A DNA stretch of 62,173 bases from Burkholderiales bacterium (GTDB taxonomy: Bacteria > Pseudomonadota > Gammaproteobacteria > Burkholderiales > SG8-41): assembly GCA_022841375.1 (NCBI GenBank), contig JALHRQ010000017.1, positions 1-62,173 on the forward strand. The letters are read 5' to 3'. Shown here one piece after another: positions 2,616-6,409 of the stretch. A program made the position numbers and the translations under genes. Below the pieces are notes generated by a model. That model saw only the letters and a list, made by a program, of their open reading frames with translations, was not told where the DNA came from and made no database searches. Positions within the stretch are counted from its first letter, which is position 1; each line of letters opens with the position of its first letter.

Positions 2616-3056
2616 TCAGTAACGTGCGTAAACCGAGTGGCGGCCGCTCTTGTCAACCAGCAGCACATCGTACGGTTGGGGTTTTGCGGATTCCATACCG
2701 GGTGAGCCCTGCGGCATGCCCGGCACGGCAAGCCCGGATGCCGCCGGTTTTTCAGCCAGCAGGCGCCTGATCTCGCGCGCCGGCACATGGCCCTCAATGG
2801 CATAACCTTCGATCACTGCGGTATGGCAGCCACCGAGTTTTTCAGGGATGCCCATGCGCTTGCGCATAACCGCGGAGTCTTCGACTGCAACCGGCTTCAC
2901 ACGGAAGCCGTTGGCGCGCAGATGGTCCATCCACGCGCCGCAGCAGCCTCAGGTCGGGTTCAGGTACACCGTGGCAAGTATCGGTTCCGCCGCGAGGACG
3001 GCGCCCGGAATCATCATTGCGGCAATTAAAGTCAGGAATTTGCGTCGATTGGTCAT
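2616..3056 (-). CDS. copG: CopG/DUF411 copper protein with in-frame TGA at the first motif Cys
   Basis: Read from ATG at 3056, the frame gives a signal peptide (MTNRRKFLTLIAAMMIPGAV), then YLNPT, a TGA at 2949-2951, GCCGAWMDHLRANGF and a complete DUF411 domain ending at 2616: 146 residues if the TGA is read. The family motif here is CxCC (as in PTCGCCGAW), so the TGA falls exactly on the first Cys at residue 36. C38, C39 and C77 remain. Pseudomonas CopG of this family is known to bind a Cys-bridged Cu(I) cluster. No other lesion is seen. Either the TGA is recoded as selenocysteine (see the hairpin at 2913-2939) or the gene is a fresh nonsense mutant or base error. It sits five bases from the cupredoxin gene. 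Confidence 0.8.
2913..2939 (-). promoter_or_regulatory. Hairpin just after the copG TGA, SECIS-like candidate
   Basis: On the mRNA strand, nine nucleotides after the TGA, a 12-bp stem closes without a bulge. The outer arm is GGCGCG with CGCGCC, then two G-U wobbles, then GATG with CATC, around a three-base loop GAC. The loop begins with G, about 21 nt from the TGA. From memory, bacterial SECIS models ask for a stem-loop shortly after UGA with an early G in the apical loop and a loop distance of some 16-37 nt, and this fits. The bases also encode conserved residues (GAWMDHLRA), so the stem could be coincidental. Confidence 0.45.
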
Positions 3057-3060
3057 GACA

Positions 3061-3567
3061 TCACCTTTGGGTTACGTTGATCTTGCCGACCATGCCGGCC
3101 TCGAAATGACCTGGCAGCAGGCAGCCGAAGTGGAATTCGCCGCCTTTGCTGAACTGCCAGATGATGGTTTCGGTTTTGCCGGGCGATACATGGGCCATGT
3201 ACGGCTCGTCGTGTTCCATCGCCGGAAATTTTTTCATCAGTTCGGCGTGTTCCTTCAGTTCGGGCCAAGTGCCCAGCACGAATTCGTGCAGGGTCTTTCC
3301 GGAATTGGTGACTACAAATCTTACCGTTTCGCCCTGTTTGATGGTCAGTGCGGCCGGCGTGAAGCGCATTTTGTCGCTCATGTCGACCTTGATGGTGCGC
3401 ACGATTTTTTTCGGGTCCCCGGCTTTGCCGAATGATTTTTCCTCGATGCTGATCGTGCCGGGCTTGGCGGATTTTTGGGCGTGCGGGTCGCCATGGGCCC
3501 AGACCGGTGCAGCGGCCAGGGTCGCGGTAATGCAGGCTGCGGTGAATAATGACTTGGATTTATGCAT
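3061..3567 (-). CDS. copI: CopI-like periplasmic cupredoxin
   Basis: 168 aa with a signal peptide (MHKSKSLFTAACITATLAAA...WA) and a His-containing linker, then a single cupredoxin domain. Type 1 copper ligands are visible in order: H94 in TLHEF, C149 in FGCLLPGH, H154 and M159. The segment MKKFPAMEHDEPYMAHV is typical of CopI, the cupredoxin known to support copper tolerance in Rubrivivax and relatives. The ATG at 3567 is chosen because it directly starts the signal peptide. The upstream 35 bases are strikingly A+T-rich (TAATAATATAATC) and may hold its promoter. It is the second gene of a tight pair with copG, in the order copI then copG. Confidence 0.88.
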   Translation of the reverse strand: MHKSKSLFTAACITATLAAAPVWAHGDPHAQKSAKPGTISIEEKSFGKAGDPKKIVRTIKVDMSDKMRFTPAALTIKQGETVRFVVTNSGKTLHEFVLGTWPELKEHAELMKKFPAMEHDEPYMAHVSPGKTETIIWQFSKGGEFHFGCLLPGHFEAGMVGKINVTQR

Positions 3568-3601: not shown

Positions 3602-4990
3602 TTAGTGTTTGTGCCCTGACGCAGGTTTGCGAGCTTGCAGCACTTGTTCACGTGGGCCGGTCGGGGTGGGGGCCGCGCTGGTGGCCGCCGGCGCTGCGCC
3701 GCTCCATTCGCGCGCCACGGTGCCCGGCGGATGCTTGAACCAGCCCGGATCCTTGTAATCATTGCGCGCGAGACCGTCGCGCACTTTGACCACAGTGAAC
3801 ATGCCGCCCATCTCCAGCGGTCCGAAGGGGCCGCGGCCGGTCATCATTGGCAGCGTGTTGTCGGGCAGCGGCATTTCCATTTCACCCATGTCGGCCATGC
3901 CGCGTTCGCCCATCACCATGTAGTCGGGCACCAGTTTCATGATTTTTTCGGCGACCCCGCGGTGGTCGACACCGATCATCGTCGGCACGCCGTGGCCCAT
4001 CGCATTCATCGTGTGGTGCGACTTGTGGCAATGGATGGCCCAGTCGCCCGGCGCGTCCGCAGTGAACTCGAAGGCACGCATCTGACCGACGGCAACGTCC
4101 ACCGTCACTTCCGGCCAGCGCGCGGACTTCGGCACCCAGCCGCCGTCGGTGCAGGTGACCTCAAAGTCGTAGCCGTGCATGTGCACCGGATGGTTGGTCA
4201 TCGTCAGATTGCCGAAGCGGATGCGTACCTTGTCGCCGGTGCGCACCACAAACGGATCGATTCCGGGAAACGCCCGTGAGTTCCAGCACCACAGGTTGAA
4301 GTCGAGCATGGTGTTGACGTTCGGGGTCGCCGCACCCGGTTCGATGTCGAAGGCATTGAGCAGGAACACGAAATCACGGTCCACTTTCATGAAGTTCGGA
4401 TTTTTCGGGTGCACTACGAAAAACCCCATCATGCCCATCGCCATCTGCGTCATTTCGTCGGCGTGCGGGTGGTACATGAAGGTGCCGGATTTTTTCATTT
4501 CGAATTCGTAGACAAAGGTCTTGCCGACCGGAATCTGCGGTTGCGTCAGCCCGCCGACGCCGTCCATGCCGTTGGGCAGCAGGATGCCGTGCCAGTGGAT
4601 GGTGGTGTGTTCGGGCAGCTTGTTGGTGACGAATATGCGCACCTTGTCGCCTTCGACGCATTCGATGGTCGGGCCCGGCGACTGGCCGTTGTAACCCCAC
4701 AGGTTGGCGGTCATGCCGGGAGCAATCTGGCGGCGTACCGGTTCGGCGATCAGGTGGAATTCCTTCCAGCCGCTGTTCATGCGCCAGGGAAGGGTCCAGC
4801 CGTTCAGCGTCGCCACCGGGTTGTAGGGACGACCGCTGGCCGGCATCAACGGGGGTTGTGTATCGGGTTTGGATTGCATTGGCGCTTCGGGCACTGCGCC
4901 CTGCGCGGCGCGGCTGACCGTTGCGGCACCGAGCAATGCAGCGCCGGAGGCGCGGAGGAAATTGCGGCGGTTATTCATGTCGTGATCCAT
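3602..4990 (-). CDS. Tat-exported multicopper oxidase (CopA/CueO-type)
   Basis: 462 aa. The N-terminus has a twin-arginine motif (NNRRNFLRASGAALLG), so the enzyme is folded with copper before export to the periplasm. All four multicopper motifs are present: HWHG (132-135), HPHAD (174-178), HPVHMHG (267-273) and HCHKSHH (320-326), supplying type 1, 2 and 3 copper ligands. A Met-rich region (MADMGEMEMPLPDNTLPMM) follows near residue 365. Function by family: oxidation of Cu(I) to less toxic Cu(II). The ATG at 4978 (MNNRRN) is an equally good start. It lies four bases downstream of the TolC-type gene and is surely cotranscribed with it. Confidence 0.9.
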   Translation of the reverse strand: MDHDMNNRRNFLRASGAALLGAATVSRAAQGAVPEAPMQSKPDTQPPLMPASGRPYNPVATLNGWTLPWRMNSGWKEFHLIAEPVRRQIAPGMTANLWGYNGQSPGPTIECVEGDKVRIFVTNKLPEHTTIHWHGILLPNGMDGVGGLTQPQIPVGKTFVYEFEMKKSGTFMYHPHADEMTQMAMGMMGFFVVHPKNPNFMKVDRDFVFLLNAFDIEPGAATPNVNTMLDFNLWCWNSRAFPGIDPFVVRTGDKVRIRFGNLTMTNHPVHMHGYDFEVTCTDGGWVPKSARWPEVTVDVAVGQMRAFEFTADAPGDWAIHCHKSHHTMNAMGHGVPTMIGVDHRGVAEKIMKLVPDYMVMGERGMADMGEMEMPLPDNTLPMMTGRGPFGPLEMGGMFTVVKVRDGLARNDYKDPGWFKHPPGTVAREWSGAAPAATSAAPTPTGPREQVLQARKPASGHKH

Positions 4991-4993
4991 TTT

Positions 4994-6409
4994 TTAGTGG
5001 CCGGCTTCGGCGGCGGGCGCGGTGGCGCGCAGGCTGCCGCCCGATGCTGCAATGGCGCCGGGCGACTTGCCGTTGATCGTGAACTGAAGGGTGGTGTCGG
5101 CGAGCCAGAAGTCTCGTTGCGCTTCGATGGCGTTGATGACTGCGCTGACCTGCTGGCGGGATTCGGCGAGCAGTTCAAACACGCTCATCAGCATGCCGTT
5201 GTAGCGCAGCAGCGTTTCTTCGCTGATGCGTGCGCGCAGCGGCACCACTTCGTCACGGTAGTGCCTGGCCAGGTCGTAGCTGGTGCGCCAGGCGCCATAG
5301 GCTTCGCGCACTTCCGAGCGGGCGCGTATCGCGAGGTCCGCCGCGCGGTTTACCGCTTGCCGGTGGGCGTTTTCGGCCCGCGCCAGTTTTGCCGAACCGG
5401 AATCGAATATCGGCAGCCGCAGTTCGATTTCGTAACCGGTCTGGCGCGGTTTGCCGCTTTCGCTGTTGCGGATGTATTTCGCTTCGAGCACGCTGAAATA
5501 TCCGGTGGCTCTGGTCAGGCCCAGCGAGTTGGCGATGTTTTCGGCATTGCCCACGGCCGCCTGCACATCAAGCCGCTGCTGCATGGCCTGTCGTTCGATA
5601 TCGGTCATCTCGCGCAGCGTTGGCGGAAGATCGGGCAGGCGCTCCGGCAGCTTGAATGCAATGTCGTTACCCCACAGTCCGAGCAGCCGGGTCAGTCGCT
5701 CGCGTTCGGCCAGTGACTGCTGGCGGGCGCGCGCGAGTTGTGCGGTGGCATCGGCATAAAACGCTTGCTCTCGCGCCTGGTCGAGTTTGCTGAAATTGCC
5801 TGCGTTCACCATGCGCCGCGCCAGCTCGGATGCCGCTTCGGCGGCCCCTTTGACCTGTTCGGCATAGGCCGCCGATTGTTGTGCGGCGATTGCGCTGATC
5901 CATGCGCGGCGGGTATCGGCGGCGACCTGGATGATGTCTGCAGCCATGCGACCCTGCACGAGTTCGAAACGTTCGCGTTCCAGCTGCGTGCGGAGCGGCA
6001 TCGTCAGCAAACCCATCAGGTCGAAAATGAAAGCGCGTTCATACTCGACTTCATCTGCGCGATGCGTACGACCAAACGAGAAACCCGGATTGCGCAGGCG
6101 GCCGGCCTGCACCAGTTCCGCTTCGGCAATGCCGAGTTCGGCGTAAGCGGCCTGCAGTCCGCGATTGTTGAGCAGCGCGATCTGAACGGCGTGCTCAGCG
6201 GTCAACGGCTGGGCCAGCAGCTTGCGCACCGCATCGGCGGCGCGGTCGGCATCGGCCTCGTTTTTGATCCACGGCGCCTGCTGCGTGATGCCGCGCTGGC
6301 TAAGTGCGGCATTGACTTTGCCGGTGCCACCGTCGTCCGAAAACGTCGCGCAGCCGCCCAGCAGCAGCACGGCGAGGGCGATGGTCCATTTTCCGGATGC
6401 GCCGATCAT
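4994..6409 (-). CDS. TolC/CusC-family outer membrane lipoprotein
   Basis: 471 aa. The signal peptide ends in a lipobox (LLLGGC, Cys20), so it is an outer-membrane lipoprotein. It has the two-fold repeated helical plan of outer-membrane efflux proteins: LTAEHAVQIALLNNRGLQAAYA near residue 70 and a long coiled-coil with AEREL-type repeats. In CusCBA systems such a channel works with an RND pump and adaptor, but neither is encoded nearby, so its inner-membrane partner must be elsewhere or it serves the multicopper oxidase export route. The ATG overlaps the stop of the preceding small gene (ATGA), showing translational coupling. Confidence 0.88.
   Translation of the reverse strand: MIGASGKWTIALAVLLLGGCATFSDDGGTGKVNAALSQRGITQQAPWIKNEADADRAADAVRKLLAQPLTAEHAVQIALLNNRGLQAAYAELGIAEAELVQAGRLRNPGFSFGRTHRADEVEYERAFIFDLMGLLTMPLRTQLERERFELVQGRMAADIIQVAADTRRAWISAIAAQQSAAYAEQVKGAAEAASELARRMVNAGNFSKLDQAREQAFYADATAQLARARQQSLAERERLTRLLGLWGNDIAFKLPERLPDLPPTLREMTDIERQAMQQRLDVQAAVGNAENIANSLGLTRATGYFSVLEAKYIRNSESGKPRQTGYEIELRLPIFDSGSAKLARAENAHRQAVNRAADLAIRARSEVREAYGAWRTSYDLARHYRDEVVPLRARISEETLLRYNGMLMSVFELLAESRQQVSAVINAIEAQRDFWLADTTLQFTINGKSPGAIAASGGSLRATAPAAEAGH

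Follow-up and report, generated by a model that had tools for sequence, protein, structure and literature searches.

The copG (DUF411) gene of a Burkholderiales bacterium very probably encodes selenocysteine (Sec) at codon 36, where an in-frame TGA takes the place of the first cysteine of the CxCC copper motif. This reading of the sequence is supported by the conservation of the codon, by covariation and codon-shuffle analyses of the hairpin that follows it, and by the presence of the selenocysteine machinery. We analyzed a contig of 62,173 nucleotides (JALHRQ010000017.1), referred to below as the window, together with relatives of its copG gene in other genomes. An earlier note on this DNA had suggested that the TGA might be a selenocysteine codon, and the conserved TGA, the sel genes and a hairpin that fits a SECIS element all bear this out. 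More tentatively, we propose that such Sec-CopG proteins may make up a widespread and uncatalogued selenoprotein family, spread over at least eight phyla, in which an encoded Sec would bridge a polynuclear copper cluster.

The copG gene occupies positions 2616 to 3056 of the minus strand, from an ATG at 3056-3054 to a TGA terminator at 2618-2616, and its predicted product has 146 residues with Sec at codon 36. The assignment draws on the sequence, the Pfam model PF04214, an alignment with CopG and the predicted fold. The putative selenocysteine codon (Sec36; 2949-2951, minus strand) is conserved in relatives, and the peptide around it reads YLNPT-U-GCCGAWMDHLRANG. All coordinates were verified in the sequence, which confirmed that the frame is intact apart from this TGA and that the TGA stands in place of a family Cys, opposite the first C of NCGCC in the CopG of structures 6WIS and 6WJE. 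By alignment, U-G-C-C (2940-2951, minus strand) would be the Sec form of CxCC, which a review describes as a copper-binding motif (PMC7558416), and the same stretch contains a UxxC pair, Sec36 with Cys39. The window protein exceeded the gathering score of DUF411 (PF04214; 93.5 bits for a cut-off of 27), a model that spans its residues 75-121 only, and it aligned along its whole mature length to the solved CopG (6WIS/6WJE), the sole sequence match among solved structures. Judging from a median dN/dS of 0.18 after the TGA (96 codons, gap-free, 105 pairs of 15 genes), the frame 3′ of that codon is under purifying selection.

We then read the codon in relatives. A copG match was present in 46 of the 74 genomes of the window's family. 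Fifty loci were read out of 56 places, with two pieces in genome G001, one piece in G002 and a weak G032 match with three stops left out, and 48 of them were single copies spanning the site. The codon was TGA in 45 of these 48 copies, TGC in the other three (L029, L057 and L063), and TAA or TAG in none. Across the DUF411 relatives read, the column held TGA or a Cys codon and no other stop. Loss of the Sec pathway was considered as an explanation for the TGC copy of genome G021 and dropped: selB was not over the cut-off there but tRNA-Sec is present, and the genome is 74% complete. In G058, which also carries a TGC copy, selB is present and tRNA-Sec was not over the cut-off. On one contig (G054:C120), a Sec-CopG gene (L040) and a Cys-CopG gene (L063) lie about 9.5 kb apart. 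Second copG copies at L065 (G036:C213) and L066 (G002:C15) are split across two frames and stand outside the 45 of 48; their N-terminal pieces keep the TGA, and they are pseudogenes or assembly errors.

Of 399 genomes sampled from the wider order, 144 carried a copG match; among the matches listed, the internal TGA was confined to the window's family. A sample of 251 Chloroflexota genomes gave a CopG match in 4, with TGA in the sample's centre genome only. CopG is also common on plasmids (3,453 of 72,556 records). A Sec/Cys tree of 129 rows, built by a quick method from few columns with the Sec column masked and the family Sec rows thinned, needs at least six Sec/Cys changes, of which the starred branches force only two, the tree being unrootable and its Cys rows coming from one order.

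The same codon was recovered far beyond the family by scanning genome contigs for TGA, TAA, TAG or TGG followed by G-C-C-x-x-W and, at a fixed distance, C-H-T. At least 117 stretches matched this pattern; 115 of those listed are CopG, and all 115 have TGA at the codon, with TAA or TAG at none of these listed loci. The two non-CopG matches among those listed carry TAA in one case and TGG in the other. Decayed genes would be expected to show all three stops, so that the restriction of the CopG loci to TGA disfavors decay. Because 26 of 113 pattern loci were identical over 210 nt to family loci, the family count and the pattern-scan count share members. Going by the organism names in the records, which in the case of metagenome-bin titles can be wrong, the CopG loci among the matches listed belong to Pseudomonadota (30), Chloroflexota (28), Actinomycetota (16), Acidobacteriota (12), Gemmatimonadota (8), Rokuibacteriota (5), Thermodesulfobacteriota (4), Myxococcota (3), Campylobacterota (2) and Methylomirabilota (1), with 6 unresolved. 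We state the spread as at least eight phyla because bin titles are fallible, the Myxococcota loci carry no title more specific than 'Deltaproteobacteria', and Rokuibacteriota is a close relative of Methylomirabilota. Among the Sec-CopG records with titles of named strains and not of metagenome bins are those of Helicobacter brantae, H. cholecystus and Parendozoicomonas callyspongiae. No viral contig matched the CopG pattern.

Some individual loci deserve mention. The Chloroflexi CopG gene at L104 (1073-1203) has, besides the TGA, an internal TAA 36 codons later. Some Acidimicrobiaceae bins hold two Sec-CopG genes, namely L137 and L176 on contig CAMYMH010000057.1, and L128 and L181 in bin NAT239. 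The contigs of L092, L099 and L193 are titled Bordetella parapertussis, and these species names are probably wrong.

The TGA is followed by a putative SECIS element. Its apical hairpin (2913-2939, minus strand) begins nine bases past the TGA and consists, as the earlier note had it, of 12 pairs, two of them G-U, closed by the loop GAC, with 21 nt from the TGA to the loop; the predicted fold as a whole, which includes a lower stem of 7 bp, extends over 2904-2950 (minus strand). The 48 nt from the TGA on folded at −28.2 kcal/mol, compared with a mean of −16.8 for dinucleotide-shuffled sequences (z −4.36; 0 of 200 as low). Bacterial SECIS elements are described as having a loop of 3-9 nt, an upper stem of 4-16 bp, a G in the first two loop positions, a distance of 16-37 nt from the UGA and a minimum free energy of at most −7.5 (PMC13188914). 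Scored in this way, the hairpin lies within every range (a 3-nt loop opening with G, a 12-bp stem, a distance of 21 nt and −28.2 kcal/mol for the 48 nt), and its loop GAC differs from the commoner type, G then G or U. Rfam models found nothing in the window at curated thresholds; between 2600 and 3100, a single sRNA match at chance level (E 3.4) lay on the opposite strand.

Conservation of the pairing was assessed with 32 distinct rows of family Sec genes. The 12 pairs were kept in 85.2% of cells, both partners had changed in 21 cells, and the covariation score was reached by 0 of 500 shuffles; in 24 Cys genes, the same pairs formed in 53.5% of cells and the score was reached by 222 of 500 shuffles, figures to be read with the kinship of the sequences, which can inflate covariation, and with the derivation of the tested structure from the window's own sequence in mind. 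As the TGA is conserved across many genomes and the hairpin covaries, their combination is more than chance.

Raw hairpin energies hardly split the two kinds of gene, with means of −13.5 (Sec) and −12.4 (Cys). They mislead because the protein motif W-V-x-H-L codes for the core stem in Sec and Cys genes, and tests against synonymous codons were needed. The mean z of the stem score against synonymous-codon shuffles was +1.50 for 38 family Sec genes, +0.92 for 87 other Sec genes and −0.38 for 24 Cys genes, and the proportion of genes passing at p 0.05 was 61%, 16% and 4%, respectively. For folding energy, the corresponding mean z values were −2.26 (42 family Sec genes), −0.44 (87 other Sec genes) and −0.11 (24 Cys genes). 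For the window and its family, the case for a SECIS element is strong; in other lineages it is moderate, and in many Chloroflexota it is weak. In the alignment of the Cys genes, W-V-x-H-L imposes the core hairpin at columns 19-33, and the SECIS element may have grown on a stem already imposed by the protein motif.

The window's genome (99% complete, 66 contigs) contains selA, selB, selC (tRNA-Sec) and selD. selB (421.5 bits) and the adjoining selA (573.5 bits) were both over the cut-off, and a tRNA-Sec with anticodon TCA (75.9 bits) lies about 1.7 kb on from them. Between selB and the tRNA-Sec sits a thioredoxin-reductase-like gene (contig C3, L001 433-1341, minus strand; 223.9 bits, below the cut-off of 343), possibly part of the selenium cluster. 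selD, also over the cut-off, is itself Sec-containing, with an in-frame TGA at GGGUGCK (L208 1501-2430, minus strand; C15:11228-12157), which we take to be the known Sec position of SelD. None of the formate dehydrogenase alpha matches in this genome (including C22:33856-35907) has an internal TGA, so that CopG and SelD may belong to a small number of selenoproteins for which this genome maintains the Sec pathway.

In the window's family, selB was over the cut-off in 66 of 74 genomes and tRNA-Sec in 43 of the 46 that bear copG, the other three being 79-83% complete. Outside the family, 50 of 59 non-betaproteobacterial Sec loci, picked from the first 80 listed, were compared with 22 Cys genomes. 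selB was over the cut-off in 44 of the 50 Sec-CopG genomes and in 6 of the 22 Cys-CopG genomes of the window's order (Fisher p 7e-7), a comparison confounded by ancestry because the Cys set comes from one order. One of the six Sec-CopG genomes outside the family in which selB was not over the cut-off is titled as a chromosome (G500, locus L149).

The predicted structure of the window protein (pLDDT 94.9) confirmed the CopG fold in the model, with TM scores of 0.93-0.94 (query length) to 6WIS and 6WJE and 6WJE as the best PDB match (TM 0.94). An alignment of 62 Sec and Cys forms, with U read as C, showed the Sec/Cys36 column, C38, C39, C77-H78, M114 and M121 to be invariant. In the window, Cys77-His-Thr is encoded at 2820-2828, Met114 at 2715-2717 and Met121 at 2694-2696, all on the minus strand, and we infer that the two methionines are the Cu-binding Met of CopG. 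The protein begins with a putative signal peptide, MTNRRKFLTLIAAMMIPGAVLAA (2988-3056, minus strand), in which a Tat-like RRKFL motif was read by eye. By a crude motif search, 22 of 42 Sec proteins of the family carry a Tat-like RRxFL, as do 12 of 87 Sec proteins from elsewhere and 7 of 24 Cys proteins; an equally crude search found lipobox-like signals in 37 of the 87 from elsewhere.

All neighbors of copG described here are on the minus strand. The next gene downstream (2244-2582) is predicted to code for a CusF-like copper-binding protein (PF11604, 94.9 bits), and the next upstream (3061-3567), at a 4-bp gap from copG, for a plastocyanin/azurin-like cupredoxin (PF00127, 38.2 bits). They are joined by genes for a multicopper oxidase (3602-4990; PF07732 and PF07731) and an outer-membrane efflux protein of the OEP type (4994-6409; PF02321). 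By homology and by these copper-gene neighbors, the view that the window protein is a copper protein is supported. A review presents CopG itself as a thioredoxin-like protein of the periplasm in which CxCC and two Met hold a tetranuclear copper cluster, and which is proposed to oxidize Cu(I) and hand copper on (PMC7558416).

From these elements we propose the following sequence of events. SelB with Sec-tRNA-Sec would bind the hairpin just 3′ of the UGA, and selenocysteine would be inserted as residue 36 of CopG. The Sec-CopG protein would be exported and fold as CopG, with its thioredoxin-like architecture. Sec36, replacing the first Cys of CxCC, would provide a selenolate ligand to the Cu(I) cluster, and/or would act as the nucleophile of the U36xxC39 pair, helping Cu(I)/Cu(II) cycling or keeping the site reduced. 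The likely setting is the run of copper genes made up of those for the outer-membrane efflux protein and the multicopper oxidase, the cupredoxin gene, copG and cusF. Sec as a copper-cluster ligand is plausible on these sequence grounds; we infer that Sec36 binds copper in the cluster, forms the U36xxC39 redox pair, or both.

The second of these roles leads to the alternative that survives best, and we regard it as possible if somewhat doubtful: Sec36 is real, but the protein works mainly as a UxxC thiol/selenol oxidoreductase of the cell envelope, for which copper is incidental or was lost outside Pseudomonadota. It shares the Sec step with our preferred explanation and is compatible with it. 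A U36xxC39 pair on a thioredoxin-like fold is what such an enzyme would have, weak glutaredoxin-family profile matches point the same way, and most uncharacterized selenoproteins are expected to be redox proteins (PMC13188914). Neighborhoods cut both ways. With 1.5-kb flanks, 27 of 42 family Sec loci, like the window copy, adjoin homologues of the window's copper genes, which argues for a role in copper handling; outside Pseudomonadota, with the window's proteins as query, a copper-gene homologue was near 1 of 83 Sec loci among the matches listed and was not found at the other 82, 37 of the 83 stretches ending within 1.5 kb on one side. These neighbor tests, like the overlap tests, used 113 loci, the short or cut frames of L104 and L140 being left out. 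Also against a mainly redox function is the invariance of C38, C39, Cys77-His and both Met in the 62 aligned Sec and Cys forms.

It is improbable that the UGA serves mainly as a regulated stop, at which low selenium would yield a short peptide only, or a restart inside the gene at Met42. As a rule, termination competes with recoding, and an ATG-started ORF does run from 2930. However, outside the window's genus most family sequences have Ile or Val in place of Met42, and a form started there would have neither signal peptide nor copper motif. The purifying selection after the TGA speaks for the full-length product, though it would be equally expected for the short form. Still less credit is due to the idea that a suppressor tRNA or a changed genetic code has the UGA read as Cys, Ser or Trp. 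Sequence reveals the codon and not the inserted residue, but most of the genomes carry selB and tRNA-Sec, the family has conserved the hairpin, and since TGA serves as terminator in 93 of 155 Sec-CopG loci, there is no general reassignment of this codon. A nonsense mutation in a copG pseudogene or a misread TGC, the alternatives raised by the earlier note, have only the normal meaning of TGA as a stop in their favor and can practically be dismissed, given that 45 of 48 family copies and at least 115 pattern loci from many separate records share the TGA at this codon, which excludes a base-call error of the window, that no CopG among the loci listed has TAA or TAG there, and that dN/dS downstream is 0.18.

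A 2026 catalogue of 119 prokaryotic selenoprotein families and subfamilies has no entry for DUF411, PF04214 or CopG in its table (PMC13188914), in line with the earlier note, which did not know such a protein to have been described. Literature searches, with subscription papers, preprints and supplements outside their scope, found no earlier record of a DUF411/CopG selenoprotein, and Sec-CopG is likely an uncatalogued selenoprotein family. The window protein shares its family score, fold, CxCC, C77-H and Met positions with CopG/DUF411 of structures 6WIS and 6WJE; the solved form has Cys, whereas in the window a TGA with a SECIS-type hairpin would encode the first residue of CxCC. With the thioredoxin-fold UxxC selenoproteins (Trx, Grx and DsbA-like; PMC13188914) it has in common Sec at the N-terminal position of CxxC and a thioredoxin-like fold, but these are families other than DUF411, and the pair in the window protein sits in a U-G-C-C metal motif.

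The likeness to the glutaredoxin-like UXX-star selenoproteins (NF041212) is weak: residues 29-68 of the window protein scored 14.3 bits, short of the cut-off of 66, and UXX-star has no DUF411 region. More generally, the NCBIfam matches of 25 Sec-CopG proteins were all weak and confined to three glutaredoxin-type models (best E 0.0008), and the window protein scored 16.5 bits against a glutaredoxin-type model with a cut-off of 88.55. Two catalogued selenoproteins are copper-linked by name, the SO_0444 family Cu/Zn efflux transporter (NF033936) and a CopZ-family [2Fe-2S] protein (cd10141) (PMC13188914). Both are different proteins from Sec-CopG, and NF033936 is absent from the NCBIfam matches of the 25 Sec-CopG proteins.

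If the proposal is true, the catalogue of 119 would gain a selenoprotein family with members in at least eight phyla, each of which would be truncated or started too late by gene callers that stop at TGA. The Cys form has solved structures and is described with a copper cluster, so that natural Sec and Cys homologues could be compared for the effect of selenium on copper chemistry, and the carriers of Sec-CopG include strains with names of cultured isolates. In these bacteria, the supply of selenium would be tied to the handling of copper.
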